A stretch of 23,479 nt of DNA, taken from IMG/VR virus record IMGVR_UViG_3300034093_002271, positions 1-23,479 of that record; one strand, written 5' to 3'. Every line of letters begins with the position of its first letter. Positions within the stretch are counted from its first letter, which is position 1. The position numbers and the translations under genes were made by a program. The notes under the pieces were generated by a model that worked only from the letters and a program-made list of their open reading frames with translations, was not told the DNA's origin and did no database searches. The stretch is from a virus. This document shows, in pieces, positions 1 through 22,693 of this stretch.

Positions 1-787
1 GCGCTAGCGGTAAAGCAAATAGCTTAGGCCATTGAGCAGCTCCTAGCCCTGATGTTTTAAAGTTATGTAGTTCTTGATAATTTTCAAGAGTAACTTTATC
101 CCAAATTTGATAAAATGGATCTTTTTCTACTAAATCAGAATGCCCAATATTATGTATTTTTTGATGTAGATCTTCTTTTGATCTACATAGACTCCAATGC
201 AACGCAATTAAAGGTGTTTGAATTCTGTTAGCCCCAGAAGCGCTTTTATCAGTCCATCTAGCATAAGTAAAAGTACTACTTTTATGAGTTACTACGCCTT
301 GGTTTTCTCCGTAGAAAGGAGTATTATCCATATTAGCAATTACTAGTACTGTATCATCAATTATTTTATAAGGAGTAGCCCAAGTCATACATAAGTCAAC
401 ACTATCAGCATATCTCTCAACAATAGGGCAGAAATTATAGAAAAACTCTTTTGCATTTAATAGCTGTTCATCGGCATCAAAACTGAAAATCCAGTCATTA
501 GTACACTGAGCTTTTAAAAAATTACGCTCATAGTTATCATTTTCAATAGCTACAGTAGACTGATGAAAATTTTCTTCTATTATAGAAATTTTATTTTCTT
601 TATCTAGCTCTGCTAGTTGTGAAAATAATAAATCAGAGTTAAACGTAAATTTATTACCACTCCAACTTATTCTATCTTTATCTAGCCCTAAAACAATTTC
701 ATCTACGTAGTCATAGTAGCTAGCTATGCTCTTTGGTAGATAGCTAGCATCATAACTTATTAAACTAATAGCACTTTTCTTAAGCAT
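1..787 (-). CDS. Glycosyltransferase-like protein (GT2/GT-A type), 3' end outside window
   Basis: An open frame runs leftward from an ATG at 787 and leaves the window without a stop, giving 262 visible residues. The N-terminus (ISLISYDASYLPKSI) followed by YYDYVDEIVLGLD looks like the first strands of a GT-A fold. The segment around residues 90-107 (NFLKAQCTNDWIFSFDADE) fits the family pattern in which a DxD-like acidic motif (here DADE) binds metal and the nucleotide-sugar. Its start overlaps the stop of the upstream methyltransferase gene by 8 nt (ATGCTTAA), so the two are probably translationally coupled at the end of the sugar cassette. Donor and acceptor are unknown, and the missing C-terminus prevents finer assignment. 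Confidence 0.72.
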   Translation of the reverse strand, partial: MLKKSAISLISYDASYLPKSIASYYDYVDEIVLGLDKDRISWSGNKFTFNSDLLFSQLAELDKENKISIIEENFHQSTVAIENDNYERNFLKAQCTNDWIFSFDADEQLLNAKEFFYNFCPIVERYADSVDLCMTWATPYKIIDDTVLVIANMDNTPFYGENQGVVTHKSSTFTYARWTDKSASGANRIQTPLIALHWSLCRSKEDLHQKIHNIGHSDLVEKDPFYQIWDKVTLENYQELHNFKTSGLGAAQWPKLFALPLA

Positions 788-1538
788 CAGTTACCTGTGT
801 CTTTACTGCAGTTTTAGGCGCTGGTTTAATAACAGGCTTTATTACTTTTTTCTTGATTCCGTATATAGCTACACCGGAGAAATAGGCGTTACTATTACTT
901 GTACTACTATGAGTTCTTTTTTCTTTCCAAGTAACATCTAATTTATCTGCATGTCTTAAGAGTGCTTCTTCTAGTTGCGTAGCATGTAGTGAATTAGAGT
1001 ATTGCGAAAACATAAGTACTGCTTCTGGATTCATAGATAATAATACTTTATCAAAAAATTCATCATATAGAGCTGTATTAATAGGAGTTACATCAAAGAA
1101 ACATACATCAAATTTCTCTTGTTTAGCCCAGTCTACATCTTCAAAATTACTTTCAATAATAGTAATATTATCTAAGTTAACTCCATTATCACCTACTTTA
1201 TAGCGCTGTAGAGTAGCTTCCATTTGGCTTTTCATATTATCCCAAATAAAACCTTCTGGAGCCCACTTTAAGGGTTCTCTATCATCATACTTATAGTTCT
1301 CTACACCTACTACTTTGGTAGTTTTATTACCAAAAGCGGCAGCTACAATAGTAGATCCTCTGTATACGCCAATTTCTAAATATCTTGTATTATCTGGAGC
1401 ACATACGTTATTAATTAATGCTCGCAATCTAGTAGAGCTTAAACCAAATAGTTCACGCTCTCTTTCTGTTAGTTTAGCTTGTCCTTGGTCAGCTAGCTCT
1501 AATGCTGCCTGTACCCATTCTTTTGTAATTTTTCCCAT
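780..1538 (-). CDS. Class I SAM-dependent methyltransferase
   Basis: This 252-aa protein has a Rossmann-type SAM-binding signature near residues 53-80: YLEIGVYRGSTIVAAAF is motif I with acidic E and Gly residues, and VVGVENY ends strand 2 with an acidic residue. Further on, IESNFED and FDVCFFDVTP (about residues 129-153) look like motifs II/III. Small phage and polysaccharide-cluster methyltransferases of this kind often modify sugars or other small substrates, so O- or N-methylation of a cassette sugar is plausible but inferred. The C-terminus from about residue 228 is a Lys/Pro/Val-rich low-complexity tail. A Shine-Dalgarno-like AAGGATAGG lies just before the ATG, formed by the end of the upstream small gene. 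Confidence 0.75.
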   Translation of the reverse strand: MGKITKEWVQAALELADQGQAKLTERERELFGLSSTRLRALINNVCAPDNTRYLEIGVYRGSTIVAAAFGNKTTKVVGVENYKYDDREPLKWAPEGFIWDNMKSQMEATLQRYKVGDNGVNLDNITIIESNFEDVDWAKQEKFDVCFFDVTPINTALYDEFFDKVLLSMNPEAVLMFSQYSNSLHATQLEEALLRHADKLDVTWKEKRTHSSTSNSNAYFSGVAIYGIKKKVIKPVIKPAPKTAVKTQVTDA

Positions 1539-1541
1539 AAC

Positions 1542-1739
1542 CTATCCTTTATTAAATAATTTTTCTAAAAGTATATCAAATAGTATAAAAGGTATATATA
1601 TTATCAGTACTAGTGCACCTAGTATTAGACTTACCACTATAGATAAGCTAATTATCAATACAGTTAATAGTATCCATAGGCTAACAAAAGCAGTTAATAC
1701 CGGTTTTACTTTTCTATTAACCTTTAGAGTTCCTAGCAT
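1542..1739 (-). CDS. Small membrane protein with two predicted transmembrane segments
   Basis: The 65-residue product has a basic N-terminus (about residues 6-12), then two nearly continuous hydrophobic stretches at about residues 15-36 and 39-56, and ends with a charged tail (LLEKLFNKG). It should be an integral inner-membrane protein with both ends on the cytoplasmic side. Its stop lies 3 nt from the methyltransferase start, and its end supplies that gene's ribosome-binding sequence, so it belongs to the same leftward operon. No family is recognised. A membrane anchor for the glycosyltransferases is possible, but nothing in the sequence shows it. Confidence 0.6.
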   Translation of the reverse strand: MLGTLKVNRKVKPVLTAFVSLWILLTVLIISLSIVVSLILGALVLIIYIPFILFDILLEKLFNKG

Positions 1740-1770
1740 ACCAGCTAGTTCTTCTTTAGCTATATATATC

Positions 1771-2514
1771 TTATCTATTTTTAATCTCCGTGTCCAGCGT
1801 TTTATAAAATATTGAGTTTGCCCATTTCGTCTGTAATCTAGCTAGGTTTCTCATTTCCATAGCTACCTTACTACTATCTAGTTGCTTAACTATTTTGTTA
1901 TCTCTAGACTCGTGATGTATTAATCTTACAGGTATTTGATATATTTTTTCTCCACGGTCTCTAGCAGTAAGACAATAGTCAACGTCTCTGTTATATGTCC
2001 ATTCATACTCTGGGGAAAAATCTCCAACGGCATTGATGAAACTTCGTCTAATATAGCAACCTCCGAACGTAGTCCATGCAACTTCTCTTACAGAGTTATA
2101 TTGACCAGTATCACACTCTAACGATTGTTTAAATAACTGTTTGTTTTCAATAATTAAACCACTTCCATAGTGATCTGGTCTATCATCCGTAAATTTTCCT
2201 CCAGCAGATTGTATGATAAAATTATCCTGCACATCCTTTGCAGGGTATAGTAACAAACAACCAAACATTCCTGCTTCTGGATATTTTTCGACGTAGGTTA
2301 AAACCTCTTCAAACCAACCATCATGGTGCGGCGTCATATCTGCATGTAGAATAAATATATCATCATTAGGAAATTTACTCCACATTTTTTGAAACATAAG
2401 ATCTGATCCAATACCTGCATCATCTCTTTCATAGTAAACATCATATTCCCAGAATGTCTGTTTATGTATTTTTATTTCGTGTTCGTTTACATAAGGAGTA
2501 ATTATTTTAACCAT
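1771..2514 (-). CDS. Glycosyltransferase family 2-like protein
   Basis: The 247-aa protein starts directly with a GT-A beta-strand (KIITPYVNEHEI). It has an acidic donor-binding region with FILHADM (residues 54-60) in the place of the DxD motif. The C-terminal half has the usual GT2 acceptor-side signature: FGGCYIRRSFINAVGDFSPE followed by a DVDYCLTARDRG segment containing the D/ED-like catalytic acid. HHESRDN near residue 210 matches the His-rich end of many rhamnosyltransferase-type GT2 enzymes. The ATG at 2514 lies inside the last codons of the upstream 51-aa gene, so the two are overlapped. It probably adds one sugar to a surface or virion glycan; donor and linkage cannot be told. Confidence 0.82.
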   Translation of the reverse strand: MVKIITPYVNEHEIKIHKQTFWEYDVYYERDDAGIGSDLMFQKMWSKFPNDDIFILHADMTPHHDGWFEEVLTYVEKYPEAGMFGCLLLYPAKDVQDNFIIQSAGGKFTDDRPDHYGSGLIIENKQLFKQSLECDTGQYNSVREVAWTTFGGCYIRRSFINAVGDFSPEYEWTYNRDVDYCLTARDRGEKIYQIPVRLIHHESRDNKIVKQLDSSKVAMEMRNLARLQTKWANSIFYKTLDTEIKNR

Positions 2515-2657
2515 GTACCGGATTCCTCAATTTCTGCAATTCTACGCTTTAACCAAGCAATTACTTCTTTATTATCACTTGAAATGTGATCTAATTCATA
2601 CTGTAGACCGGTAAGTATACTACGTTGAAAACTGCTTATAATTTTTCTATTTTCCAT
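2502..2657 (-). CDS. Small charged helical protein, 51 aa, unknown function
   Basis: A 51-codon frame fills the otherwise empty gap between the neighbouring genes. It begins at ATG 2657, 6 nt after the upstream stop, and has GGATAGGATAAC in front as a ribosome-binding sequence. Its TAA overlaps the start of the glycosyltransferase gene. The product begins MENRKIISSFQRSILTGLQY and ends in a long amphipathic, charged segment (EVIAWLKRRIAEIEESGTWLK), so it is probably two helices. Tight packing and operon position support it as a real gene. Similar short proteins occur beside phage enzymes, but I recognise no family. Confidence 0.6.
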   Translation of the reverse strand: MENRKIISSFQRSILTGLQYELDHISSDNKEVIAWLKRRIAEIEESGTWLK

Positions 2658-2663
2658 GTTATC

Positions 2664-3086
2664 CTATCCATGAAGCATATAGCTAGTATCAGAAGTTATT
2701 AAACTACTAAATTTTATATATCTATCACTATTTTTATCCATAAGATCATTAAATCCGTATAAGTCTAGATGTTTAACTTTCATAGATACGCAAAAGGCTA
2801 TAGCTAGTAATCCTGAGCTAACTCCAGCTATATGATACCATTTATATTCATCAAAAAATAACACTCTATGATTATTTTTATACCTTTTATAGTTATCATA
2901 TGTAGTTATAATTGGTTGATAATTATAATTATCTAAATTACCTCTAGTCATAGGATCTAACACACTGGTATCCATAGATACTAATAAATTAGCTTTTTTA
3001 TAGTGAAAGTTAGTTCCTAACACTAGCTGCTTAGTGTTAACTTCACTTATATACGTTCCACCACCTACTATAGAGACGCTACTCAT
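2664..3086 (-). CDS. Short DUF115/GT42-like protein
   Basis: The 140-residue product opens with a Gly-rich nucleotide-binding-like strand (VSIVGGGTYI). Near residues 84-114 it carries WYHIAGVSSGLLAIAFCVSM followed by KVKHLDLYGFND. The order 'Gly-rich strand, then (T/S)SG, then Ala-rich helix, then strand ending G(I/F)D' is shared by DUF115/6-hydroxymethylpterin-pyrophosphokinase-like proteins and CAZy GT42 sialyltransferases. Those are usually over 200 residues, so this one is short. It starts one nucleotide inside the stop of the epimerase-like gene (TAATG) and is part of the sugar cassette. A role in transferring or activating an acidic sugar is an inference, and the assignment is fold-level only. 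Confidence 0.5.
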   Translation of the reverse strand: MSSVSIVGGGTYISEVNTKQLVLGTNFHYKKANLLVSMDTSVLDPMTRGNLDNYNYQPIITTYDNYKRYKNNHRVLFFDEYKWYHIAGVSSGLLAIAFCVSMKVKHLDLYGFNDLMDKNSDRYIKFSSLITSDTSYMLHG

Positions 3087-4093
3087 TAAATTAGTTTATC
3101 TGTCCAAGTTTTAGGAGTTTGATCAGTAATTAACTCAATAGGTAAATGATACTCAAAGTCACGTACCCTTGGTTTTATCCAGTTAACCATTTCTTGTATA
3201 GTTTTATCTGCTGAAATAGCTGCTACGTAGTTAAACTCATTTTTAATTTTAGCACTTGAGCAATATGCATTCTTAACCTCATTAGGTCTATCAGGAAAAT
3301 GCTGTAATGCTGGATACACTTCTGCAAAATGTCCAATTCTATAGGCAAGTTGTTTAATACTCATCTCATTATCGTCTGGGCCAATATTATATACTTGCCC
3401 ACACAGATCTTTACCGCTAATCATTATCTGTTCTACTGCTTTAATACAGTCTAGTACGTTTGAGAAAGATCGTTTTTGTTCTCCATCACCGTATATAATA
3501 ATAGATTTATTCTGACAAATTCTATTTATCATGATTCCTACTACATTTCTAAATGGGTCAAAATACCTCTGCCCTATTCCAATAACATTGTGAGGAACAA
3601 CTGTTACATAGTTTAACCCGTGAATTTTAGATAATAGCTCTAAATGTTGTTCAGCTTGAACTTTAGCTAAGCCATAAGGATCTACAGGCTTTGTAGGCAT
3701 ATCTTCAGTAAATGGAGGAATTTGATCTCCATACCTAGCCATAGAACTACAATTTATAACTAACCTAACTTTACAATGTAATGCTGCTACCGCTACTGCT
3801 AAAGTACCTGATACGATGCTAGTAGCTGTAACTGTTGGAGAAAATACGCTTAAACCCTCATAGGGTAGAGAAGCTGTATGAAATACTGTATCTACGCCTT
3901 CCATATGTTTTTTCAAAAGCTCTATATCTAGTATATCACCTTTAATATATGTAGCTTTTTCAGGAACGTTTTCATCTATCCCACCAATACCATTATCAAT
4001 ACCGATTACCTCATAACCGCCTTGATTAATTAAATATCTAGCAAAGGTACTTCCTAGTAGTCCTGCTATTCCTGTAATAAATACTTTAGTCAT
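3086..4093 (-). CDS. NAD-dependent sugar epimerase/dehydratase (extended SDR)
   Basis: The chosen start is the ATG at 4093, which overlaps the upstream stop as TAATG; a TTG two codons earlier is less likely. The 335-aa product has the Rossmann NAD motif GxxGxxG at residues 8-14 (GIAGLLG), the acidic strand-2 end (IGIDNG), the SSMARYGD substrate region, and the catalytic Tyr-x-x-x-Lys as YGLAK (Tyr140, Lys144). The length fits the UDP-glucose 4-epimerase / NDP-sugar dehydratase family. NVLDCIKAVEQI and YNIGPDD are family-typical C-terminal landmarks. It probably epimerises or reduces the 4-keto sugar made by the adjacent RmlB-like enzyme; exact chemistry is unknown. Confidence 0.88.
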   Translation of the reverse strand: MTKVFITGIAGLLGSTFARYLINQGGYEVIGIDNGIGGIDENVPEKATYIKGDILDIELLKKHMEGVDTVFHTASLPYEGLSVFSPTVTATSIVSGTLAVAVAALHCKVRLVINCSSMARYGDQIPPFTEDMPTKPVDPYGLAKVQAEQHLELLSKIHGLNYVTVVPHNVIGIGQRYFDPFRNVVGIMINRICQNKSIIIYGDGEQKRSFSNVLDCIKAVEQIMISGKDLCGQVYNIGPDDNEMSIKQLAYRIGHFAEVYPALQHFPDRPNEVKNAYCSSAKIKNEFNYVAAISADKTIQEMVNWIKPRVRDFEYHLPIELITDQTPKTWTDKLI

Positions 4094-5070
4094 TACCAAA
4101 CAAATCTTTCTTTAAAATACTTAACAAGTCCAACAATCTCTTTATCAAACTCTTTTCTAGGCAGCCAGCCTAAATCTCTTAATGGTTTACACGAAATAGC
4201 GTACCTTACATCTTGTCCTGGTCTACTATATGTAAAATCTATATGCTCATTATAGTTGGGAATAGAAATATCTACTCTACCCATAAAATAACTATTGATA
4301 ACTTTATATACTGTATCTATATTTTTTTGTTCAAACTCAGACGATATGTTATAAATACGATTACGCTCTGCTACCTCAGAGAGTAACATTATAGCATCAC
4401 ACGTATCTTCTACATGTGTCCAAGTTCTGATAGGGTTTCCGTTATTATGTAACTTAATTTTCTTACCTCTAGAAAGTCTTTTGACTGATAGAGGTATTAG
4501 CTTTTCTGGATATTGATTAGTACCGTAGTTATTAGAAGGCCTAGCAATAATATACTCTAACCCGTTGGTTCTAGCCCAACTTTTAATTAGTAAGTCAGCG
4601 GACGCTTTAGTAGCAGCATAAGGATTACTAGGATTAATAGGCGAGTTTTCATCAAAAATACCAGATATAGTATCTCCATATACTTCATCTGTAGACATCT
4701 GAAAGAATAATGGTTTATCAGCTCTTATAACAATTCTATTACTTACTATATCTAGTAAATTTCTTACGCCTTCTATATTAGACTTAATGAAACTATAGCA
4801 ATTAGCATTACCATTATCTACATCACTCTCAGCCGCTAGATTAAATATAACATCACACTCTGGTAGCCACTTAATATCTTCTATAGCTTCTTCTACAAAC
4901 TTAAAACGTGCAGGAAATCTTGCTAGCATCGTACTAACGTAATCTTTATTAGCTACATAAGTTAACTTATCTATACCATATACGTGCCAGCCATGACTAA
5001 GTAATTTATAAGTTAAGTTAGACCCTATAAAACTAGCACATCCAGTAACTACTGCTATTTTATTAGCCAT
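4093..5070 (-). CDS. rmlB: dTDP-glucose 4,6-dehydratase-like enzyme (RmlB family)
   Basis: This 325-aa protein matches RmlB in length and motifs. It has NAD-binding GCASFIG at residues 10-16, FNLAAESDVD near 76-85, the catalytic triad motif STDEVYG with Thr127-Asp128-Glu129, and Tyr151/Lys155 in YAATK. RPSNNYGTNQYPEKLIP and WTHVEDTCDAI follow. RmlB removes water from dTDP-glucose to give dTDP-4-keto-6-deoxyglucose, the entry point to many deoxy and amino sugars. The middle Gly of the NAD loop is Ser here. The ATG at 5070 overlaps the end of the aminotransferase gene by 8 nt, with AGAGGT as ribosome-binding site. No RmlA thymidylyltransferase is in the window, so the host or another phage region must supply the nucleotide-sugar. 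Confidence 0.9.
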   Translation of the reverse strand: MANKIAVVTGCASFIGSNLTYKLLSHGWHVYGIDKLTYVANKDYVSTMLARFPARFKFVEEAIEDIKWLPECDVIFNLAAESDVDNGNANCYSFIKSNIEGVRNLLDIVSNRIVIRADKPLFFQMSTDEVYGDTISGIFDENSPINPSNPYAATKASADLLIKSWARTNGLEYIIARPSNNYGTNQYPEKLIPLSVKRLSRGKKIKLHNNGNPIRTWTHVEDTCDAIMLLSEVAERNRIYNISSEFEQKNIDTVYKVINSYFMGRVDISIPNYNEHIDFTYSRPGQDVRYAISCKPLRDLGWLPRKEFDKEIVGLVKYFKERFVW

Positions 5071-6052
5071 TTATACCTCTTGTTATAGGAAAACAAATAA
5101 TTCTATCGTATACATATTTAGAATTAGCAAAGCCTCTAAGCGGGTAATAGTACTTTTTAACGTCTCTATCTGCGTAATCAGATATGTTTACCGGCTCTTT
5201 GTGTATTAAAGGTAAGCAGTTTGGAAAAAAGATTTCTGTGTTTTCAGCTAAATGAGGAAATACAGAACAATCTATATCTCTTAATGTATACAGTTCTTTA
5301 TAATAGTTATCTAAATACTGTTTTTGAAGTGAATCTATATCAAAACTACCCCACCATTGCAAGATGCCAGCAGCAGCTAACTCACTCATTTTAAAGTTTC
5401 CACCGCGCTCATTAAAAGCACCGTTTACTAAGCCAAAGTTACAAGCTATTCTTACAGATTCTTCATACTCTTTATCAATAATAACTAAACCTCCTTCACC
5501 AAAACCAATTGGTTTTGTATGATGTAGAGATATAAAAGATGCATTACCTAGATTACAGCTATTAGTACCATTCCAAAAAGAATATGGACTAGCAGCGTTA
5601 TCAAATATGACTTTTTTACCTTTAGTATTATCAAGAATATAGTCTAAGTTTTGTAAATGCCCAAAGCAATTAGTAACTATTACCATGTCAGCGTACTGAC
5701 TTAAATACTGGTCATTTAGATCAATTTGAATATTAGAATCTACGTCTACTACTATAGGACCCTCTGCTGGTCCTTGAGAATTACATGGAAAGGTAAAATC
5801 TTGTGTAGCTACTCTATAGCTTTTATTATCCTGTCTAGACATAGCGTATATAATAGCATGTAAAGCAGTACTACCATTGTTAGTAGCTATAATAGCTTTA
5901 CTATCATCAATTTTTAACATTCGTCTAGCTTCTTCTTCTAAAAACTGAACAGCCATACCATAATTTGTAAACTGATTAGTTTCTTTAGCAGCTATTAGAT
6001 AGCTATCAAAAGATTGTAAATTAAAGGATTTTTTAAGAATAAAATTATTCAT
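5063..6052 (-). CDS. DegT/DnrJ/EryC1/StrS-family PLP aminotransferase
   Basis: The 329-aa product from ATG 6052 (a GTG lies three codons upstream at 6061) has the sugar-aminotransferase features. These are a phosphate-binding TNNGSTALHA segment near residues 57-66, the cofactor Asp in VIFDNAASP (Asp151), and the PLP lysine in SLHHTKPIGFGEGG (Lys180), the family S/T-x-H-x-x-K pattern. Such enzymes aminate 3- or 4-keto nucleotide sugars. With RmlB directly downstream and a NeuD-like acyltransferase upstream, this suggests a dTDP-amino-dideoxy sugar that is N-acylated. It is the first gene after the promoter at 6077-6105, with GAGTGAGAG as ribosome-binding region. It is somewhat short for the family at the C-terminus. 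Confidence 0.88.
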   Translation of the reverse strand: MNNFILKKSFNLQSFDSYLIAAKETNQFTNYGMAVQFLEEEARRMLKIDDSKAIIATNNGSTALHAIIYAMSRQDNKSYRVATQDFTFPCNSQGPAEGPIVVDVDSNIQIDLNDQYLSQYADMVIVTNCFGHLQNLDYILDNTKGKKVIFDNAASPYSFWNGTNSCNLGNASFISLHHTKPIGFGEGGLVIIDKEYEESVRIACNFGLVNGAFNERGGNFKMSELAAAGILQWWGSFDIDSLQKQYLDNYYKELYTLRDIDCSVFPHLAENTEIFFPNCLPLIHKEPVNISDYADRDVKKYYYPLRGFANSKYVYDRIICFPITRGING

Positions 6053-6076
6053 TGCTCTCACTCATTTGTATACTTT

Positions 6077-6105
6077 ATTATAGCAACATTTAATATGCTA
6101 TACAA
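6077..6105 (-). promoter_or_regulatory. Sigma70-type promoter for the leftward sugar operon
   Basis: On the minus strand a TTGTAT -35 box (6105-6100) is followed after exactly 17 bp by a perfect TATAAT -10 box (6082-6077). The predicted transcript starts near 6070, just before the aminotransferase gene. It lies in the only clear gap of the left cassette, so it should drive 6052 down through the left edge. Confidence 0.75.
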
Positions 6106-6125
6106 GCTTTTTATAAAGGCAAGTA

Positions 6126-6893
6126 TTATAGGATTATAGATTCATATACAGCTGACCAGTCGATATATGGAGTAATGCAATGATCTTGTAAATGCGTAGC
6201 CTGTCCTGGTACTGGACATAGTGCGTTTGTTTGCATAAAAGCTTTCCAAGTCCATGAGTCATCGGCAAATACCCCTGCTCTGAGTATCTCAAATTTAAAC
6301 TGTAACCAAGTTCTACCTAGTGCCGCTATAGTTAGAGTTGCACTTGGAATAGTTCTTAGATGCCCGTATGGACCTGCAAATAACTGGCAGCGGCTAGTAA
6401 TATCTATAGTATATCTATCAGGGTAATCATAAGGAACATAAAAACCACTAAATCCATTAACATATAGCTGTTTCATAGCTATAATAGCATTAGATGTGTG
6501 TAAATAATCATCTTCACATACATATATTAGCTCATTTGGATTAGTTTCAGCTATATTTATAATAGCTTCTGTTAAATCTTGAGCAGAGTTAACTACTACA
6601 GGATGATAGTTAGGATATGCATGATTAGCTCTAAGCTCTGGTAAAGGCGTTATAGGTAATACACTAAATTGAGCTACAGTATTATCTCTCATCCAATCAA
6701 GAGTTTCTTGACTAGTCCTATCATCAATAATAATGATTCTATCTTCAGCAGTTAAGCCATTCTGTATAGATTTATAACATTTACGTAAGATCTCTAATTT
6801 ATACTTACCATTCCAACGAGGTATATTTTGGGTACCATCACCTAGTGATCCAGCTGATAAATTAGCCTCACAACTTCTAAACAGAATAATCAT
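6126..6893 (-). CDS. Glycosyltransferase-like protein with GT-A fold
   Basis: The 255-aa protein contains IIIIDDRTSQE at about residues 53-63, the GT2-type strand ending in a nucleotide-binding Asp pair, and LIYVCEDDYLHT near 122-133. In the latter, Glu127-Asp128-Asp129 sits in the position of the metal-binding DxD. The C-terminal part is Trp- and aromatic-rich and holds a possible catalytic acid in GVFADDSWTWKAF. Its start overlaps the acyltransferase stop by 4 nt (ATGA), so the two are translated together. A gap with a new promoter follows it, so it forms the end of an upstream unit. Sugar donor and acceptor are unknown. Confidence 0.65.
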   Translation of the reverse strand: MIILFRSCEANLSAGSLGDGTQNIPRWNGKYKLEILRKCYKSIQNGLTAEDRIIIIDDRTSQETLDWMRDNTVAQFSVLPITPLPELRANHAYPNYHPVVVNSAQDLTEAIINIAETNPNELIYVCEDDYLHTSNAIIAMKQLYVNGFSGFYVPYDYPDRYTIDITSRCQLFAGPYGHLRTIPSATLTIAALGRTWLQFKFEILRAGVFADDSWTWKAFMQTNALCPVPGQATHLQDHCITPYIDWSAVYESIIL

Positions 6894-7510
6894 GGTTTTT
6901 TCCTAATAATTCCTGATTGGAAAAATTCTCTGTCGTTCATATTATCAAATACACACTCACCTGCACTAATAGTATTATCATTACCTATTAGTACTTTAGG
7001 AGTTATAGTAACATTAGCTCCTAAGAAGTTATCATCTCCTATTTTAGCAAAACCCATAATACCACAATAAGGACTAATAATATTGTTATTACCTATACTA
7101 TTATCGTGAGTACTACTAGAGTATACATTAAATATATTAAAGTTACCTATAACAGAATTAGCATTAACCGAAGCAAAACAATTAAATACATTACCTATAC
7201 CCATCTGCGAGGATAAAGATATATAAGCATTAGTAGCTATAGCATTAGGCCAATGAGTTATTGTTTTAGGATAATATTTTAAAAAATGCTCTATAAATAA
7301 CTGTCTCCAAGCTTTATTACCTGTTCCAAGTATGAAAGCAGATTCTTTAGGATAGGTAAAAGGTGCTACTCCTTCGTCACCAATAAGAAAGGCTTTATTA
7401 TCCTTTAAGATAATAAAGCCCCCAAAGTTACTGATTACGTTTCTTAAAAATATTTGTTCAAATACTTCTTGAGCGTATCCACCATTACCTAATATATATG
7501 TTTTTTTCAT
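6890..7510 (-). CDS. NeuD/PglD-like sugar O/N-acyltransferase (left-handed beta-helix)
   Basis: This 206-aa protein follows the NeuD/PglD plan. An N-terminal Rossmann-like nucleotide-sugar-binding domain opens with TYILGNGGYAQEV. A hexapeptide-repeat beta-helix follows from about residue 95 to 190 (IGNVFN, IGNFNI, IGNNNI, IGDDNFLGANV, IGNDNTISAG). His135 in STHDNSIG matches the conserved catalytic histidine of PglD-type N-acetyltransferases. Such enzymes acetylate amino groups of UDP- or dTDP-4-amino-dideoxy sugars, which fits the DegT aminotransferase and RmlB downstream. The start has a weak AAGAG ribosome-binding site. Acetyl-CoA as donor is family knowledge; the specific sugar is inference. 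Confidence 0.85.
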   Translation of the reverse strand: MKKTYILGNGGYAQEVFEQIFLRNVISNFGGFIILKDNKAFLIGDEGVAPFTYPKESAFILGTGNKAWRQLFIEHFLKYYPKTITHWPNAIATNAYISLSSQMGIGNVFNCFASVNANSVIGNFNIFNVYSSSTHDNSIGNNNIISPYCGIMGFAKIGDDNFLGANVTITPKVLIGNDNTISAGECVFDNMNDREFFQSGIIRKKP

Positions 7511-7537
7511 TTAAATCTCTTATATTAGATAACTATT

Positions 7538-7558
7538 ACTTAGTATTAGAAACTAAGT
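7538..7558. repeat. 7-bp inverted repeat spanning the OMP-like gene stop codon
   Basis: ACTTAGT and ACTAAGT form a perfect 7-bp stem with a 7-nt loop that includes the stop codon of the small OMP-like gene. No U-tract follows on the minus strand, so it is not a standard terminator. It may stabilise the mRNA end or weakly separate the two genes. Confidence 0.4.
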
Positions 7559-7920
7559 GTTGCTGATAAAGTCATTTCACTGCGTGTATCAGCTTCTAGA
7601 TCATATGATGTTTCAAGCATAAATTCTAGATTCTTTTGTGTAGCAATAACTGCTTCAAAATCAATAGTTGGATAAACTTTAAAGGTATCATCACCTACCC
7701 AACCATTGTTCCATACTGACAAGTCAGAAGAAACAGTCACAGTTAGCATATCTAGATTATAGCTAATTTTTGGAGTTACGACAGTAGTCATGTCCTCAGC
7801 ATCTACAGTATAAGAAGTTTTTACTTCACCTCCCGCTGAGAAACCGTTTCCTAAAGTAATAGCAGAAGCTGATGAAGCAAGTGCCATAACGGCAGCAGCA
7901 GTAATTAATAGGTTTTTCAT
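7546..7920 (-). CDS. Small secreted outer-membrane beta-barrel-like protein
   Basis: The start is placed at ATG 7920, where AAAGGAA lies upstream and the product begins with a clean Sec signal peptide (MKNLLITAAAVMALASSASA, then Ile). The longer frame to 7980 reads back into the tmRNA and is rejected. The mature part of about 104 residues is rich in alternating polar/hydrophobic beta-strands with Thr, Ser, Val and aromatic residues (KTSYTVDA, TVVTPKISYNL, LTVTVSSDLSVW, KVYPTIDFEAVI). It ends MTLSATLSF with a terminal Phe, the usual C-terminal signature recognised by the BAM machinery. It is too short for a classical 16-stranded porin, and six to eight strands is a rough guess. A phage-made outer-membrane protein could change receptor access or permeability. 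Confidence 0.6.
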   Translation of the reverse strand: MKNLLITAAAVMALASSASAITLGNGFSAGGEVKTSYTVDAEDMTTVVTPKISYNLDMLTVTVSSDLSVWNNGWVGDDTFKVYPTIDFEAVIATQKNLEFMLETSYDLEADTRSEMTLSATLSF

Positions 7921-7985
7921 TTTACATATTCCTTTGTAATATAAACGGCCCGTTCTGTTTCTAGGTGGAGCCATACCCACAGTAC

Positions 7986-8030
7986 TTATGCTGCTAGAGC
8001 GTAAGCCTTAGGTGCGAAATTTTCATTTGC
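7986..8030 (-). other. tmRNA proteolysis-tag reading frame
   Basis: The resume codon GCA at 8030 opens a frame encoding ANENFAPKAYALAA followed by TAA. The AN(D/E)N start and the hydrophobic ALAA end are the features recognised in known alphaproteobacterial tags (for example AND- or ANE-starting, -AA ending) by SspB/ClpXP-type proteolysis. The charged Lys in the middle is a difference from the usual acidic residues. Confidence 0.92.
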
Positions 8031-8108
8031 ATTTAGTTTAGTAGCCGATACGAGGCCATCCGGTAAACTCCACGTCATCTTCACACCTGTCGATCCTATT
8101 TCGACCCC

Positions 8109-8186
8109 ATCAAAGATACACTGAGTTTATCCTTTAGCGTCGCTAAGCGCTTAGCGTGGATATAACGAGTTATCGCAGTGTATCTA
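8109..8186 (-). other. Internal spacer of the tmRNA precursor with closing stem
   Basis: The spacer between the CCA end and the GGGG start is removed during maturation in known two-piece tmRNAs. Here AGATACACTG (8185-8176) and CAGTGTATCT (8123-8114) pair perfectly over 10 bp and bring the acceptor and coding pieces together next to the acceptor stem. Inside lies the 16-nt palindrome CGCTAAGCGCTTAGCG (8141-8156), and TTAGCG is repeated so that alternative hairpins are possible. Confidence 0.8.
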
Positions 8187-8258
8187 TGGTGGAGTCGTCG
8201 GGTACCGCCCCCGAGTCCAGAATGTGTCCACGTTGCTTCAACGTTTACAATCTATATT

Positions 8259-8280
8259 ACAACTACTTATAGCTAGTTGT
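8259..8280 (-). repeat. 7-bp hairpin just upstream of the tmRNA
   Basis: ACAACTA and TAGTTGT form a perfect 7-bp stem around an 8-nt loop about 10 nt before the first acceptor-piece sequence. It may be a leader element for 5' processing. It lacks a U-tract, so I do not call it a terminator. Confidence 0.4.
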
Positions 8281-8306
8281 AAATTACTTAGTTATTTTTT
8301 TAACAT

Positions 8307-8328
8307 AGTGTTGCAAAAATACAACACT
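8307..8328. repeat. 7-bp inverted repeat at the end of the 46-aa gene
   Basis: AGTGTTG and CAACACT form a perfect stem with an 8-nt loop, touching the stop codon of the upstream minus-strand gene. On the minus strand it is followed by an A-rich run instead of a U-run, so termination would be weak; it may mark an RNA processing point before the tmRNA. Confidence 0.35.
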
Positions 8329-8468
8329 TATTCTTCTTTATAGTCTGTTACGTCTATAGTTACGTTTGAATTTGCTATTTTATATTCCTCAACAGCTTTA
8401 CGCAAGCTATTAAAATCTATATCATCTGTCTCTACTAGTACGTAGCTATCAGTTAAAGTAACTCTCAT
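8328..8468 (-). CDS. Small acidic protein, 46 aa, unknown function
   Basis: An ATG at 8468 opens a 46-codon frame that overlaps the end of the WYL_2-like gene by 20 nt and ends at 8328. The product (start MRVTLTDSYVLVETDDIDFN, end VTIDVTDYKEE) is acidic and looks like a small alpha/beta unit: strand, strand, helix (SLRKAVEEY), strand. The packed arrangement with its neighbour and the lack of any other gene here support it. No family is recognised. Confidence 0.5.
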   Translation of the reverse strand: MRVTLTDSYVLVETDDIDFNSLRKAVEEYKIANSNVTIDVTDYKEE

Positions 8469-8697
8469 CTATATTTACTTCCTTTACAGGCTTGCCTGCT
8501 GTATTGAAATTAAATACTCTAAAGTTATCAGCTTCTAGATCCCATACTAATTCCATGCCGCTTGGATAATTTTGTTCAGATCCTGCTCCGAGAACCCTTG
8601 TTTCTAGAAAAGATTTAGGTAAGTCTGCAATATGAGCAAATACCATCTCTCTAGTTTCGCCATTTTTCTTTTTAAATGAGCCTTTATAAGCTTTCAT
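8449..8697 (-). CDS. WYL_2-like (Sm/SH3 beta-barrel) phage protein
   Basis: The 82-residue protein reads as one small beta-barrel: SFKKKNGETREMVFAHIADLP at the N-terminus, then a turn, then MELVWDLEADNFRVFNFNTA. The pattern 'FxKxxGxxRxMxFxxxxDLP ... vWDlExxxFRxFNf' is what I know from the WYL_2 / DUF2693 family (Sm-like SH3 fold), common in T4-like and jumbo phages with no clear function. The start has AAGGA four or five bases upstream. It probably binds nucleic acid or protein, but this is a guess from the fold. It heads a small unit that runs into the tmRNA. Confidence 0.65.
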   Translation of the reverse strand: MKAYKGSFKKKNGETREMVFAHIADLPKSFLETRVLGAGSEQNYPSGMELVWDLEADNFRVFNFNTAGKPVKEVNIDESYFN

Positions 8698-8745
8698 AGA
8701 TAGATTCCTTATGTTACTTATAAAGTATAACTCTAATAAAGACTA

Positions 8746-9060
8746 CTAAGCAAGATTGTTTTTAACTAACGCAGCAGCAAACATAGCTCTTAAATTAATC
8801 CAATCTTCATATGAGAACCTAAAATGCTCATCTCTATCTACCGTCTTGAAAAATAGCTTATGGTGATTCTTTAGTTTCTTATACCACCAGGTACCACTAC
8901 CACAAGCAATAGTTAATTCGTCTGTTTTAGGATTAAATAGTTTAGCAGCGGCATCTAAACTTATTACATAATTTTGAACATAGTTTTCCGAAATACGAAA
9001 ACCTATATGAGCATGCCTAGTTTCTGGGTTTATTTGTATTTTGAACTTGTGTTGAAACAT
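8746..9060 (-). CDS. Phage hypothetical protein, 104 aa
   Basis: The open frame extends back to 9144, but only through a TTG inside the bS21 gene, so I start it at ATG 9060 (MFQHKFKIQINPETRHAHIG), which overlaps bS21 by 44 nt. Visible features are a beta-rich N-terminal half (FKIQINPETRHAHIGFRIS, YVISLDAAAKLF), the segment TIACGSGTWWYKKLKNH near residues 49-65, and a helical end (DWINLRAMFAAALVKNN). Cys and paired Trp near GSGTWWY are striking, but no known active site is evident. No family is recognised. Position between bS21 and a WYL_2-like gene suggests an early or middle phage gene. Confidence 0.55.
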   Translation of the reverse strand: MFQHKFKIQINPETRHAHIGFRISENYVQNYVISLDAAAKLFNPKTDELTIACGSGTWWYKKLKNHHKLFFKTVDRDEHFRFSYEDWINLRAMFAAALVKNNLA

Positions 9061-9325
9061 TAGTTCTATTATTTCTATTTTGATTGTTTTTAGAACGTCT
9101 AGCTTTTTCCATATCACGCTCTTTGCGTTCACGATTTTTTTCAATAAGAATCTGCTTTTTAGCCCAACGTTTTTTACCAGCTTTTACCGCAATACGTTTT
9201 TCTTCGCCTTTAGATACAAAAAATTGACGAGCGCGAAACTCCTTAGTATCACCTTCTTCTAGCATTTTTTTCTTTAAAATGCGTAAAGCTTTAGTTATAT
9301 CGTTATTTCTTACAAAAATCTTCAT
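9017..9325 (-). CDS. rpsU: Phage-encoded ribosomal protein bS21-like
   Basis: The first 75 or so residues follow bS21. MKIFVRNNDITKALRILKKK matches the IKVRENE..DVALRRFKR start. EFRARQFF corresponds to (V)RRREFYEKP. RIAVKAGKKRWAKKQ matches the basic ERKRAKASAVKRHAKK helix. Bacterial bS21 is about 65-75 aa; here an extra Asn/Arg/Thr-rich tail of about 27 residues follows (KNNQNRNNRTNVSTQ and on). bS21 binds the small subunit near the anti-Shine-Dalgarno sequence and helps initiation. Phage copies are known from several marine and T4-like phages, including some infecting SAR11. Its start overlaps the end of the SDR gene by 23 nt. Confidence 0.88.
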   Translation of the reverse strand: MKIFVRNNDITKALRILKKKMLEEGDTKEFRARQFFVSKGEEKRIAVKAGKKRWAKKQILIEKNRERKERDMEKARRSKNNQNRNNRTNVSTQVQNTNKPRN

Positions 9326-10235
9326 ATTTCTTATAATAATCTTCTATGGTTGCTAGATAGTCTTTATACATAAAGTCTAACTTAAAGGTGTTTACAAGTT
9401 TGTCAGAGTTTAACAAACCCCTAGGCTTTCCTGTTGGACCTAGTTTTTCTATAATTTCAAAGTCTGTTGGATACGTTTTTTTAATATCCTGACTATTTCT
9501 GGTAAAGTTATAAGATATATTGTATATTCCTGGAATCCATTTGTCTATAATATTTTTTACTGCTAAAACAAAATCGTCTATATAGATGCAACCAGCCTTC
9601 TCTATTTGAAAAGGTTTATTTATTGATAACTGTCTTTCTATGTTCATCCAAATAGAGAATTTTCCATCACCCATACCGTATACGTGTATAGGCCTAAGCA
9701 CTACATCTGTTTTGCTACAGATAGTTTCTGCCTTTGTTTTCATAGCACCGTAATGGTCTACAGCTCCTAAAGAGTACTGCTCGTCAATTCGTTCTTCCCA
9801 AGTGCCGTAAACCATGCTACTACTTAGGTGTAGAACATCCGTTCTGAAATAGGTTTTCTTGATATTACTGATTCCATCTAATATTGACTGAGTAGTAAAC
9901 TCTGGAAAATGTTGAGACAGTATAGCTTCTGATAATGCTCCACAATTTATAATTAGATCATAATTATTATTAGGTAACTGCTCAAAACTCCAAGACCTAT
10001 ACAGGTTACGATATTTATTTAAAATTAATGAATCTCTATATCGTTTATTCAGTTCTCTATGTTTTTTCTCAATATCATTTGTTTCTTGTAACCCTTTAGA
10101 CCCTCTATGTATATATTTATTACCTACATAGTTATCATCATAAGCATCTAGTATGTCTATAGTATGATCAGTTCCTAAAGCACTTACTATATTAGCTCCA
10201 ATAAATCCTAAACCACCTGTTATTAATATATTCAT
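9303..10235 (-). CDS. NAD-dependent sugar epimerase/dehydratase (extended SDR)
   Basis: The 310-aa protein has a canonical NAD motif GGLGFIG (residues 7-13), a Ser-rich substrate region LSSSMVYG (137-144) and the catalytic YxxxK as HYGAMK (Tyr162, Lys166). RPIHVYGMGDGKFSIW and YIDDFVLAV are family-typical later segments. An unusual insert of basic and aromatic residues lies at about 38-82 (KYIHRGSKGLQETND and following), where other SDRs have a short loop. The start overlaps the aminotransferase stop by 4 nt (ATGA), and the two probably act in sequence on one sugar. The reaction could be epimerisation, dehydration or reduction; the sequence does not decide. Confidence 0.85.
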   Translation of the reverse strand: MNILITGGLGFIGANIVSALGTDHTIDILDAYDDNYVGNKYIHRGSKGLQETNDIEKKHRELNKRYRDSLILNKYRNLYRSWSFEQLPNNNYDLIINCGALSEAILSQHFPEFTTQSILDGISNIKKTYFRTDVLHLSSSMVYGTWEERIDEQYSLGAVDHYGAMKTKAETICSKTDVVLRPIHVYGMGDGKFSIWMNIERQLSINKPFQIEKAGCIYIDDFVLAVKNIIDKWIPGIYNISYNFTRNSQDIKKTYPTDFEIIEKLGPTGKPRGLLNSDKLVNTFKLDFMYKDYLATIEDYYKKYEDFCKK

Positions 10236-11278
10236 AATAATACTTTAAGTCTTTCTTGTAAGTCATCAATATCTATAAAATGATGACAAGGTAACTCTAC
10301 TGCTGTTTCTGAGAATTTTGTAGCCATCATACAACTTTTAGTATTAGCTTCAAATACCGACTTAGCCAATATTTTTTTTGAGTTAAATAAATTTAATACC
10401 TGTTGTTTATCTTTCGGAAAAATTACAAATCTATGATGTATATAGTTAGTACCTTCTAACGTCTCAAAAGGTAGATTATTTTTATAAAATTCAGCTACAG
10501 CACGTCTTTTTGCTCTATAATGATTAGTTTCTATTAGTTCCATATCTTTTAATAATACTGCAGCCGAAGTAGTATCTAAATATGACTTAGTGCCTATTAG
10601 ATTACCATCTGTAGTATGAGAACATATAGTTTTTATACGTTTAGCTATAACACTATTATTAGTAGCTATAGCCCCTCCAGCTCCTAAGCACCCAGGACTC
10701 TTAGTAAAATCAAAAGAAAAACATACTATATCTGATAAACTTCCAAGTTTATAACTATAAGGCTCATTCATAGTAAAAGAGGGAGCAGCATCTTCTATAA
10801 TACTAACCCCAAAATGTCTACAGGTAGGAGCTATTTCGCTAAAGTTAACAATCGCACCGAAATTATGAACTATTAAAATAGCTTTTGGCTGGTGCTGCTT
10901 AATCATTTCCTGCAATTGATTTAAATCAATATTGCCTGTAGAGTCAATATCACAAAATAATACATTCATACCCACAAACCATGGAGCATTTACTATAGCT
11001 CTCCAACCATAAGCAGGTACAATAACAGTATCTCCTATATTACATAGAGTATGAAAAGCTATTTGTAAAGCATCAGTACAGCAATTAGTAAATTGCCAAT
11101 GATTAATACCTGTATATTCTCGGCATTTGCTTTCTAGCTGTTTATGAAATGTAGAAGGTTCTCTACCGTCTTCACTTTGAAAAGGATAATCAATAGCCTC
11201 ATTAATTGTTCTGATATAGTCTATTCTATGTGTATCGACACGTATTTGATGTGGTATACTAGCTATAGCCTTAACCAT
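10232..11278 (-). CDS. DegT/DnrJ/EryC1/StrS-family aminotransferase (second copy)
   Basis: A second sugar aminotransferase of 348 aa, close to the family's usual length. It shows FTNCCTDALQIAFHTL (the phosphate-binding region, residues 63-78), VIVPAYGWRAIVNA, the cofactor Asp163 in IIEDAAPSF, and the PLP lysine Lys193 in CFSFDFTKSPGCLGAGG. The Gly-rich segment after the lysine is typical. It starts at ATG 11278 with GAGGATA upstream, 2 nt after the previous stop. The sequence differs clearly from the copy at 5063-6052, so this is a separate enzyme for another sugar or position and not a recent duplicate. It is paired with the SDR downstream. Confidence 0.88.
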   Translation of the reverse strand: MVKAIASIPHQIRVDTHRIDYIRTINEAIDYPFQSEDGREPSTFHKQLESKCREYTGINHWQFTNCCTDALQIAFHTLCNIGDTVIVPAYGWRAIVNAPWFVGMNVLFCDIDSTGNIDLNQLQEMIKQHQPKAILIVHNFGAIVNFSEIAPTCRHFGVSIIEDAAPSFTMNEPYSYKLGSLSDIVCFSFDFTKSPGCLGAGGAIATNNSVIAKRIKTICSHTTDGNLIGTKSYLDTTSAAVLLKDMELIETNHYRAKRRAVAEFYKNNLPFETLEGTNYIHHRFVIFPKDKQQVLNLFNSKKILAKSVFEANTKSCMMATKFSETAVELPCHHFIDIDDLQERLKVLL

Positions 11279-16998: not shown

Positions 16999-17540
16999 AT
17001 ATTATAGAAATTGGCTTTAATGATACTGTAGCTAAAGCTGCTAATAAGATCGTAGCACATTGTGAAAATAATATTCAGTATTTTGGACATCAATGGTATT
17101 CTGATATTGGTAGTAAAAAAGCTATATTACTTAGGCCTGGAGAAGGCTATGAATGGCACTTTGATAATTTAGATTATGCAGATAAACGATTAACAACTGC
17201 TAGAGCCAAAAGATTTTGGACCCATATTATATATCTTACAGATGGTCAACCACTTGAGATTGGTTCTTGGAGTCCTGATGGGGATAGAGTTGAACAAACA
17301 GATTTTTCAGCTCCTGAGCCCAACATAATTTTAGCTAGAATATATCCTAAACCTGGAAAATCTGTATTATTTCCTTGTTTTATGGTACACAGAATTCAGC
17401 CCTTAGTACAGAAAAATAGATGGGCACTAGTAGATTTTGTAGCAAGCCCTGACTATAATACAAAAACTAAAAAACATTTAAAAATAGCATTTAATAGGTA
17501 CTTTGATGAGAACACTAGGAGTAAGTTGCTATCATCATGA
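16968..17540 (+). CDS. 2-oxoglutarate/Fe(II)-dependent oxygenase-like protein
   Basis: The 190-aa product carries the facial triad of the 2OG-Fe(II) superfamily. YEWHFDN holds the HxD pair (His64, Asp66). The distal His141 lies in CFMVHRIQPL, 10 residues before Arg151 in NRWALVDF, which is in the usual 2OG-binding place. Such enzymes hydroxylate or oxidise small molecules, proteins or sugars using oxygen and 2-oxoglutarate. GGAGG lies before ATG 16968, which overlaps the SGNH-like gene by 31 nt, and the carbamoyltransferase overlaps its end by 35 nt. Substrate is unknown; oxidation of a glycan or a virion protein is possible. Confidence 0.75.
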   Translation: MEDYIDPNWVDIIEIGFNDTVAKAANKIVAHCENNIQYFGHQWYSDIGSKKAILLRPGEGYEWHFDNLDYADKRLTTARAKRFWTHIIYLTDGQPLEIGSWSPDGDRVEQTDFSAPEPNIILARIYPKPGKSVLFPCFMVHRIQPLVQKNRWALVDFVASPDYNTKTKKHLKIAFNRYFDENTRSKLLSS

Positions 17541-18864
17541 TAGTGCTGCAGCTTATATAAGAGACGGTAAGATTATAGCGGCTTCTCATGAGGAGCGTTT
17601 TTCCCGTAAAAAATATGACAATAGCTTTCCTAAGAATACTATTTCTTGGTTACGCGAAGCTCATGACGACTTTGATCATGCTGTATTTTATGAAGAAACT
17701 ACTTATAAACAGTTTAAAACAGATATAAAAAAATATACTAAAGCCACACCAGTACTAGTAGATCATCACAAAGCTCATGCTATGAGTTCTATACTTACTA
17801 CTGACTGGGATAAGTGTGCAGTAATGGTAGTAGATACTGTAGGTGGTAAGTTTTCTACTTCTTTAGGAGTGTATGAGAATGGATATATTACTTGGATAAA
17901 GCAATTCAGATATCCTAACTCTCTGGGGCTATTCTATTCTACAGCTACTAAATTTTTGGGATTAACTCCTTTAACTGATGAATCACAAGTAATGGCTGCC
18001 GCTGCTTATGGAACTCCTAAATGGGCTGACTATATTAAAGAGCGTGTAATAAATACTAAACTAGGCGAATATACTGTACTACCAGATTTAACTAGAGGTA
18101 TAGGTTCAGGAGTTTTAGATTGGGATATAGCTGCTAGCGTACAAACAGTATTAGAAGAGTGTTTAATTAATTTAGCTAAATGGTTATTTAAAGAAACTGG
18201 CTTTACTAACCTAGCCTATGCAGGTGGTGTAGCTTTAAATTGTGTAGCAAATACTAAGTTACTTACTAATACTCCTTTTTGTGATATAGCTATTCAACCA
18301 GCTGCTGGAGATGCTGGATGTGCTTTAGGAGCTGCTGCTCTGATTGATAGACCGCTTTGGGAAAACGCCTACCTAGGTATTCATGCTAATAACACTATGA
18401 CTACTGAAGAATGTGCTTTTAAGTTGTTAAGAGGTGAGGTAGTTGCTATAGTTAATGGTAGAGCAGAGTTTGGGCCACGAGCTTTAGGTAATAGAAGTTT
18501 TCTAACTGTACCTTTTAAAAATAACTATAGTAAGTTAGATACTATAAAACAACGAACTACTGATAGTTGGCGACCTTATGCTCCTGTATGTTTAGAAAAA
18601 GATGCAGATTTATATTTTGATATACCTAAAAAATCTTATGAAATGCTATATGTAGCTAAATCTAAAAATAAACATTTTACTACTAATGATGGAAGTGCTA
18701 GACTACAGATAACAAATTATACAAAGAATGCCTATCTTAGCAGAGTTTTAGAATTAACTAGAGAAGAAGGATATCCAATATTAATTAATACTAGCTTAAA
18801 TGCAAAAGGAAAACCTATTGTCAACACTATGGACGACTTCAAAGAAATTCAATTATGTAACTGA
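17506..18864 (+). CDS. Carbamoyltransferase (NodU/TobZ/HypF-type), short form
   Basis: The start is ATG 17506 (MRTLGVSCYHHDSAAA); an in-frame TTG one codon earlier is less likely. The 452-aa product has a Kae1-like N-terminal domain with HHDSAAA (His10-His11) and VDHHKAHAMSS (residues 85-95) as likely metal and phosphate ligands, then AGGVALNCVANTKL. The C-terminal carbamoyltransferase domain has GRAEFGPRALGNRS near 319-332 and ILINTSLNAKGKPIV. The family transfers a carbamoyl group from carbamoyl phosphate (via carbamoyl-adenylate) to a sugar hydroxyl. Typical members are about 550-600 aa, so this is shorter. It probably carbamoylates the cassette sugar. Its end overlaps the nuclease gene. 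Confidence 0.85.
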   Translation: MRTLGVSCYHHDSAAAYIRDGKIIAASHEERFSRKKYDNSFPKNTISWLREAHDDFDHAVFYEETTYKQFKTDIKKYTKATPVLVDHHKAHAMSSILTTDWDKCAVMVVDTVGGKFSTSLGVYENGYITWIKQFRYPNSLGLFYSTATKFLGLTPLTDESQVMAAAAYGTPKWADYIKERVINTKLGEYTVLPDLTRGIGSGVLDWDIAASVQTVLEECLINLAKWLFKETGFTNLAYAGGVALNCVANTKLLTNTPFCDIAIQPAAGDAGCALGAAALIDRPLWENAYLGIHANNTMTTEECAFKLLRGEVVAIVNGRAEFGPRALGNRSFLTVPFKNNYSKLDTIKQRTTDSWRPYAPVCLEKDADLYFDIPKKSYEMLYVAKSKNKHFTTNDGSARLQITNYTKNAYLSRVLELTREEGYPILINTSLNAKGKPIVNTMDDFKEIQLCN

Positions 18865-21490: not shown

Positions 21491-22216
21491 ATGAAAAAAG
21501 TTATAGAATTTCACCTTATACATGACTTTAAACATCAGTATATAGTACCTCCTATGCCATCTAAGAAGCTGTTACCTGAGTGGCTAAAAAAGATGCCTAC
21601 TCATAACACGAGTAAAAATAATAAAATAGATCCTACTATTAAAAAATGCATACCAGTACTTGACGCTATGACTGCTGGGTATACTATATTAACGCACATG
21701 GACATTGTGTTAAGTCTACGAGAAGATAGACAGCTTGATGTTATATACCTAGACGAAAATCATAAAGAAGATATGCTCAAGCATCCTCCTATAGAACAGC
21801 ATGGTACTTGGCAAGTTCCAGGTTCTCCTTTTGAACATATGAATATACTTAAATATATGAATCCTTGGAGAATATCTACTCCTCCCAACTACTCTTTATT
21901 ATTTTTACCCCCATTAAACAGATTTGAACTACCTATTATATCACTAGCAGGACTAGTAGATACTGATAGCTTTAAAAATGTAGTTAATATTCCCTTTTTA
22001 CATACTGAGTTAACTCCTGGCGGTGAACCTATATTACTTCCAGCAGGTACTCCTATGTGTCAAGTTATACCAATACAGAGAGCTGATTGGGTTGAAAACG
22101 TTACTAATTTAGACGCGTCTGAATTACGAAATGTAAAAAATTATAGAACTATGATGGATGCTGATAGGACTGATTGGTATAAACGTAAAGTTCATACTAA
22201 AAAGAATTTTAATTAA
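21491..22216 (+). CDS. Phage protein resembling DUF6065, 241 aa
   Basis: The protein starts KKVIEFHLIHDFKHQYIVPPMPSKKLLPEWLKKMP and continues with IPVLDAMTAGYTILTHMDI, then KYMNPWRISTPPNYSLLFLPPLNR (residues 121-144), LAGLVDTDSF, NIPFL and PAGTPMCQVIPI. A 'PW-x-I-x-TPPGYSLLF-x-P-x-NR...VDTD-x...N-(F/I)PF' pattern is, to my knowledge, shared by a family of cyanophage and other T4-like phage proteins (DUF6065-like) of unknown function. The segment looks like one double-stranded beta-helix or small-molecule-binding barrel, suggested by LLPAGTPMCQVIP. No catalytic residues can be named. A gap with a palindrome and promoter follows. Confidence 0.55.
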   Translation: MKKVIEFHLIHDFKHQYIVPPMPSKKLLPEWLKKMPTHNTSKNNKIDPTIKKCIPVLDAMTAGYTILTHMDIVLSLREDRQLDVIYLDENHKEDMLKHPPIEQHGTWQVPGSPFEHMNILKYMNPWRISTPPNYSLLFLPPLNRFELPIISLAGLVDTDSFKNVVNIPFLHTELTPGGEPILLPAGTPMCQVIPIQRADWVENVTNLDASELRNVKNYRTMMDADRTDWYKRKVHTKKNFN

Positions 22217-22318: not shown

Positions 22319-22693
22319 ATGTGGATGAAAATATCAATGATACTAATAGCTTTATTAATAAGCACTACTGTGGCTTCTTCGTGGTACTATAAGTATTCAC
22401 AAGGAGTAATAAGAACGCTTACCGAAAATAATGCAAAACTTGAAATAGCTATAGAGACTCAAAAAGCTACTATGGAAGCTATGCAGAAAAGTTTTGAACT
22501 ACAGGCAGCAGCTTTAACAAGTCTTTCTGCTAGTAACCAGACTTTAAGTGTTGAAAAAGAAGCTTTATCTACTAAATTAATGAAACATGATTTAGAAGAA
22601 TTAAGTAAGCGTAAACCAGGATTAATAGAGACTAGGATAAATAATGGCACAAAAGATCTTTTTACTAGTTTTATCGACCTTTCTGCTCAGTAG
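22319..22693 (+). CDS. Membrane-anchored coiled-coil protein, inner-membrane spanin candidate
   Basis: The 124-aa protein has one N-terminal transmembrane segment (IALLISTTVASSWYYKY, about residues 10-26), then a long periplasmic helical coiled-coil region (NAKLEIAIETQKATMEAMQK; SASNQTLSVEKEAL; LEELSKRKPGLI). This is the plan of i-spanins (Rz). Its last 50 nt overlap the start of a lipoprotein gene in another frame, as in Rz/Rz1 pairs. Spanins fuse inner and outer membranes in lysis. No endolysin or holin is seen in the window, so the role is inferred. ATG 22319 sits at the predicted transcript start; a second ATG at 22325 is possible. Confidence 0.55.
   Translation: MWMKISMILIALLISTTVASSWYYKYSQGVIRTLTENNAKLEIAIETQKATMEAMQKSFELQAAALTSLSASNQTLSVEKEALSTKLMKHDLEELSKRKPGLIETRINNGTKDLFTSFIDLSAQ

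Follow-up and report, generated by a model that had tools for sequence, protein, structure and literature searches.

The stretch of DNA analysed here (the window, a 23,479-base IMG/VR virus contig with 33% G+C that is a fragment of a genome and probably comes from a T4-like phage) encodes a complete alpha-type circularly permuted two-piece tmRNA, a new member of an already-known kind of phage tmRNA. We read it as a working phage gene, with a probability of roughly 0.9. In many of its relatives, the intervening segment (IVS) that separates the two pieces holds a small protein gene; the window copy is an ORF-less form within this phage class.

Anatomy of the window gene

Two Rfam models match the gene over their full length: RF01849 (alpha_tmRNA) at window positions 8298-7944 (-), with 111.5 bits (E 5e-30; curated cut-off 50 bits), and RF04321 (tmRNA_permuted) at the same gene, with 101.7 bits (E 4e-19; curated cut-off 47 bits). 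The first of these is the covariance-model search that an earlier note, made from the letters alone, had named as a check on its proposal of a permuted two-piece tmRNA on the minus strand, and both models and ARAGORN bear the proposal out. A tmRNA does lie in the interval 7950-8250 given there, although its true extent is slightly wider. ARAGORN also finds this gene, with ANENFAPKAYALAA as its tag and a span of 8281-7895 at default ends. Sequence reading, ARAGORN and Rfam agree on the minus-strand order, in which the 3' acceptor piece is followed by the IVS and then by the 5' coding piece (Table 1). The acceptor stem formed across the two pieces, already noticed for its G-U third pair and ACCA, is paired at 7/7 positions, with G-U at pair 3 (G3-U70) and an encoded CCA. 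The tag frame had likewise been read correctly as ending in ALAA and a stop: in ARAGORN and Rfam it runs from the resume codon to ALAA and TAA, and the tag is ordinary, with an AN(D/E)N... start and an ...ALAA end. The gene thus shares with RF01849 and RF04321 the permuted order, the G-U at pair 3, the T arm, the D loop, the resume codon and the ALAA tag; it differs in being phage-encoded and in having an IVS precursor hairpin, which is absent from the Rfam structure.

Table 1. Features of the tmRNA locus and its flanks (window coordinates)
Feature	Position	Strand	Basis
9-bp perfect inverted repeat, TTACAACTA-N8-TAGTTGTAA	8257..8282	-	sequence reading
TATAAGTA, overlapping the spacer of the inverted repeat	8271-8264	-	computed position
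Acceptor (3') piece: P2 strand, GGAC, T arm, acceptor strand, ACCA	8187..8248	-	sequence, ARAGORN, Rfam, pair counts
T arm, TCGGG-GGCGGTA-CCCGA	8214-8198	-	sequence reading
Acceptor strand, CGACTCC	8197-8191	-	sequence reading
Encoded ACCA	8190-8187	-	sequence reading
Intervening segment (IVS), 78 nt	8109..8186	-	fold and pair counts
IVS hairpin arms, AGATACACTG and CAGTGTATCT	8185-8176 and 8123-8114	-	fold
TTGAT between IVS hairpin and mature 5' end		-	sequence, fold
5' (mRNA-like) piece: acceptor strand, D loop, P2 strand, tag frame, 3' conserved region	7944..8108	-	sequence, Rfam
Acceptor strand, GGGGTCG	8108-8102	-	sequence reading
D loop, GAAATAGGATCGAC, directly after GGGGTCG		-	sequence, Rfam
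Tag frame, ANENFAPKAYALAA-stop, resume codon GCA	7986..8030	-	ARAGORN, Rfam; tag recurs in other viral contigs
Downstream gene, 124 aa, predicted secreted beta-barrel outer-membrane-like protein	7546..7920	-	homologues, structure model
Upstream neighbour, 82 aa, conserved	8449..8697	-	synteny
Second bracketing flank gene	6890-7510		synteny

Covariation and the IVS hairpin

The window gene was aligned with 17 other phage permuted tmRNAs (n = 18) and 28 named pairs were counted. In this alignment, 97.0% of the cells are paired and 19 of the 28 pairs change on both sides, the tested structure being derived from one of the 18 aligned sequences. Covariation scores 0.566 for the structure in place; shuffles score 0.191, and sliding the structure along the alignment never gives more than 0.10 (maximum 0.098). 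Every acceptor-stem and T-stem pair forms in each of the 18 copies (100%), and G3-U70 is kept in all 18, a G-U at pair 3 being the alanine identity pair of tRNA-like domains; the CCA, the D loop, the resume codon and the ALAA end are all retained among the phage relatives.

The IVS forms a helix of its own, in a region that the Rfam structure leaves unpaired. Its eight outer pairs are standard in 18/18 copies and seven of the eight change on both sides, so that covariation supports the precursor hairpin along with the acceptor stem, the T stem and G3-U70. In most viral copies the helix begins 0-1 nt after the CCA and ends 4-5 nt before the mature 5' end, and a helix of at least 7 bp is found in 97 of the 108 viral IVSs of at least 24 nt. 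It is not phage-specific, since the small set of bacterial copies compared, from Sinorhizobium, Shinella and Methylobacterium (L224, L225 and L227), shows a helix like it.

Proposed function and alternatives

The gene would be transcribed as a single precursor, for which many relatives have a promoter a short way ahead of the gene. In this precursor the two pieces would come together in the acceptor stem, with the IVS hairpin extending that stem. By analogy with bacterial two-piece tmRNA, the IVS would be removed by tRNA-processing enzymes. The resulting two-piece RNA would then be charged with alanine via G3-U70 and, together with SmpB from the host, rescue ribosomes that stall in infected cells, adding ANENFAPKAYALAA to unfinished proteins and thereby sending them to host proteolysis, to the presumed benefit of the phage. 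The SmpB is assumed to come from the host, as none of the window ORFs looked at was recognisable as smpB.

It is improbable that the main role lies instead in tagging a special set of host or phage proteins for selective degradation: tmRNA acts on stalled ribosomes, is not known to select particular proteins, and no sign of selectivity appeared in this analysis. The -ALAA end of the tag is nevertheless kept, as that role would have it, and selective degradation has been suggested for the tmRNA of phage Melnitz (PMC9004378). Somewhat less probable again is a decoy, an RNA that ties up SmpB or alanyl-tRNA synthetase and so blocks host rescue instead of tagging. This idea draws on phage DS6A, whose tag-less tmRNA consists of the tRNA-like domain only and has been reported as inhibitory (PMC4131195, PMC11915505), whereas the tag frame of the window gene is complete and its position and ending are conserved here and in relatives. 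Tagging in the course of ribosome rescue is the reading that we retain.

Inheritance within a phage clade

Homologues of the two flank genes at 6890-7510 and 8449-8697 bracket the tmRNA in nine other loci (L130, L155, L166, L168, L175, L178, L188, L212 and L083). Relative records were defined by homologues of the window exonuclease (67-100% identical); a permuted tmRNA is present in 15 of these 23 records, many of which are short fragments. In one of the 15, an 87%-identical relative (G004), the permuted tmRNA has the tag ANNNFAPSGYALAA and is followed by a porin-like gene. As the tmRNA is syntenic in the phage clade, it is an inherited phage gene, kept vertically, and not host contamination; that independent phage contigs keep it at one place among phage genes upholds the earlier view that it is phage-encoded. 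Tags differ between relatives, so the tag changes over time although the RNA keeps its fold. That a host tmRNA gene or fragment was carried by accident, at an integration site or in transduced DNA, is highly improbable and by synteny largely refuted, for although tmRNA genes are common integration sites and the RNA type resembles alphaproteobacterial tmRNA, the window gene is whole, has the same phage neighbours in many relatives and varies among them by compensatory changes, and exact and loose patterns of its tag gave no match in genome contigs of 84,980 species (a weak scan, run with no positive control).

Tags, frequency and host

The internal Lys-Ala-Tyr, pointed out earlier in the tag, is nothing special: the pattern AN(D/E)NFAPKAYALAA matched 15 viral contigs, and -YALAA endings also occur on other phage tags. 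For L166, L168, L175 and L178, ARAGORN gives possible long tag frames such as ARQQTNANDNFAPVSLALAA, where the true tag is more likely the inner ANDNFAPVSLALAA. Nor can the gene be called a rare phage tmRNA, as had been supposed, since one alpha D-loop pattern finds at least 120 matching stretches in IMG/VR and 53 two-piece tmRNA structures, 50 of them from marine or aquatic samples, have been described in phages (PMC9004378). The permuted form had also been taken to point to an alphaproteobacterial host. The alpha type itself stands, but it is an insecure pointer to the host, because an alpha-type permuted tmRNA is also present in phage Melnitz, whose host belongs to the OM43 clade (PMC9004378); an alphaproteobacterial host is likely for the window phage.

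Melnitz (MZ577097, a Methylophilales phage) offers a close comparison. Its ssrA is likewise an alpha-type two-piece gene with a hairpin IVS and a -YALAA tag, and a 38%-identical PDDEXK nuclease lies near the tmRNA; it differs in its tag, ANDNYVPVDYALAA, and in a strong TTGACA-N17-TATAAATA promoter. No Rfam match to a glutamine riboswitch, as in Melnitz, was found near the window tmRNA gene. Permuted alpha-type tmRNAs are also carried by other cultured phages, namely the roseophages DSS3_MAL1, DSS3P8 and RpoS-V10 and Rhodobacter phage RcXuper, most of them unannotated in their records; their tags end in MEMAIAA or MEMRLAA and their phage backgrounds are different.

Upstream region and neighbouring genes

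A survey of 200 distinct tmRNA copies with 120 nt upstream, biased towards aquatic phages and made up of related copies, found TATAAATA in 119 upstream regions where 4.7 were expected; the motif almost always lies 33-49 nt ahead of the T-arm GGAC. TTGAC and a 17-nt spacer stand ahead of TATAA[ATG] in 87 copies, about half of the relatives. From its sequence, TTGAC-N17-TATAAATA looks like a sigma-70 promoter, the -10 of which we take to be a T4-type late motif as well. The window has only TATAAGTA, within the 9-bp inverted repeat and without a good -35, and is a poor match to the consensus of its relatives; repeat and TATAAGTA together may serve as a promoter/operator or else fold as a hairpin at the 5' end of the precursor.

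Directly after the window tmRNA lies the gene for the predicted signal-peptide beta-barrel protein, homologues of which follow or lie near the tmRNA in L131, L139, L128 and L257; in L346 another porin-like gene follows or lies near it. The 124-aa window protein had no Pfam or PHROG match, its 8-strand model has a pLDDT of 68 (36 for a single-sequence model), and comparison with the PDB gave weak porin-like matches only. Elsewhere in the window, a big block of sugar-nucleotide epimerase, aminotransferase and glycosyltransferase-like genes (780-11278, -) and a carbamoyltransferase gene (17503-18864, +) are likely surface-glycan modification genes. An overlapping pair at 22319-23000 (+), encoding a membrane-anchored coiled-coil protein and, in a shifted frame, a lipoprotein-like protein, resembles an i-spanin/o-spanin lysis pair. 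Phage-collection matches of the protein encoded at 21491-22216 (+) are all to haloarchaeal tailed viruses, at about 30% identity.

Protein genes nested in the IVSs of relatives

No ORF was found in the window's own 78-nt IVS. For relatives with longer segments, an ORF was counted as IVS-filling if its start fell no later than nt 45 of the IVS and its end lay near the IVS end or beyond it (no more than 16 nt away). By this definition 82 of the 107 distinct IVSs with a length of 120 nt or more hold one, where 8.0 would be expected from Markov shuffles; a first scan, in which IVS length had not been selected for, gave 22/28 for IVSs of at least 120 nt. Carriers are L083, L042, L045, L048, L071, L076, L092, L101, L103, many of L229-L340, and L341. 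At the window's own syntenic position, L083 has a 65-codon IVS ORF and a precursor fold with z = -3.97. In Melnitz (L341), a 142-nt IVS holds an unannotated 54-codon ORF (about 3305-3470; product beginning MFKWLSKTRL) that by eye resembles the ORF of L329.

The IVS ORFs fall into many unrelated families and evolve under purifying selection at the protein level. For 10 of the 12 motif-defined families pN/pS was obtained, with values of 0.09-0.26 in eight and of 0.38 and 0.52 in two that have one pair each, the copies being phylogenetically related and the pair counts not independent. The contrast between frames is the robust part of the evidence: in the three largest families pN/pS is 0.09, 0.09 and 0.24 in the coding frame and 1.4-4.6 in the other two frames, which also contain stops. 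One gene family, nested in the IVS of L042 and L101, is not nested in Melnitz, where it is the gene immediately before ssrA (CDS 85), an indication that genes can enter and leave the IVS. Searches of open-licence papers turned up no report of protein genes in tmRNA IVSs; in the tmRNA database paper, the passages covered mention only one tRNA gene and one repeat within an IVS.

In 54 of 74 copies, the predicted fold leaves no base of the SD-like motif unpaired; the commonest forms have AAGGA(G) as this motif, at IVS position 2, inside the hairpin arm next to the CCA. The stop codon falls at or just past the mature 5' end and is in most cases supplied either by the conserved TTGAT (TGA) or by the D loop GAAATAG (TAG). 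We tentatively propose that the tmRNA precursor might be a double-purpose RNA, with the IVS hairpin as a gene cassette, which could serve as mRNA before the hairpin closes or as tmRNA after it has closed. In the ORF-bearing relatives, a ribosome could bind while the right hairpin arm is still to be transcribed, and the hairpin would afterwards close over the SD and maturation go on.

Conclusions

Two-piece tmRNAs are ordinary equipment of some aquatic T4-like phages, and the window gene adds to them a well-supported, vertically kept member. The wider result, which outweighs the window gene, is that protein genes are nested in a spacer which a non-coding RNA precursor would discard, their ribosome-binding sites often lying within the spacer hairpin. 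Melnitz is an isolated phage with a cultured host, so that the idea of nested genes is testable there; if it is true, ribosome rescue and the expression of small proteins would be linked on one transcript.
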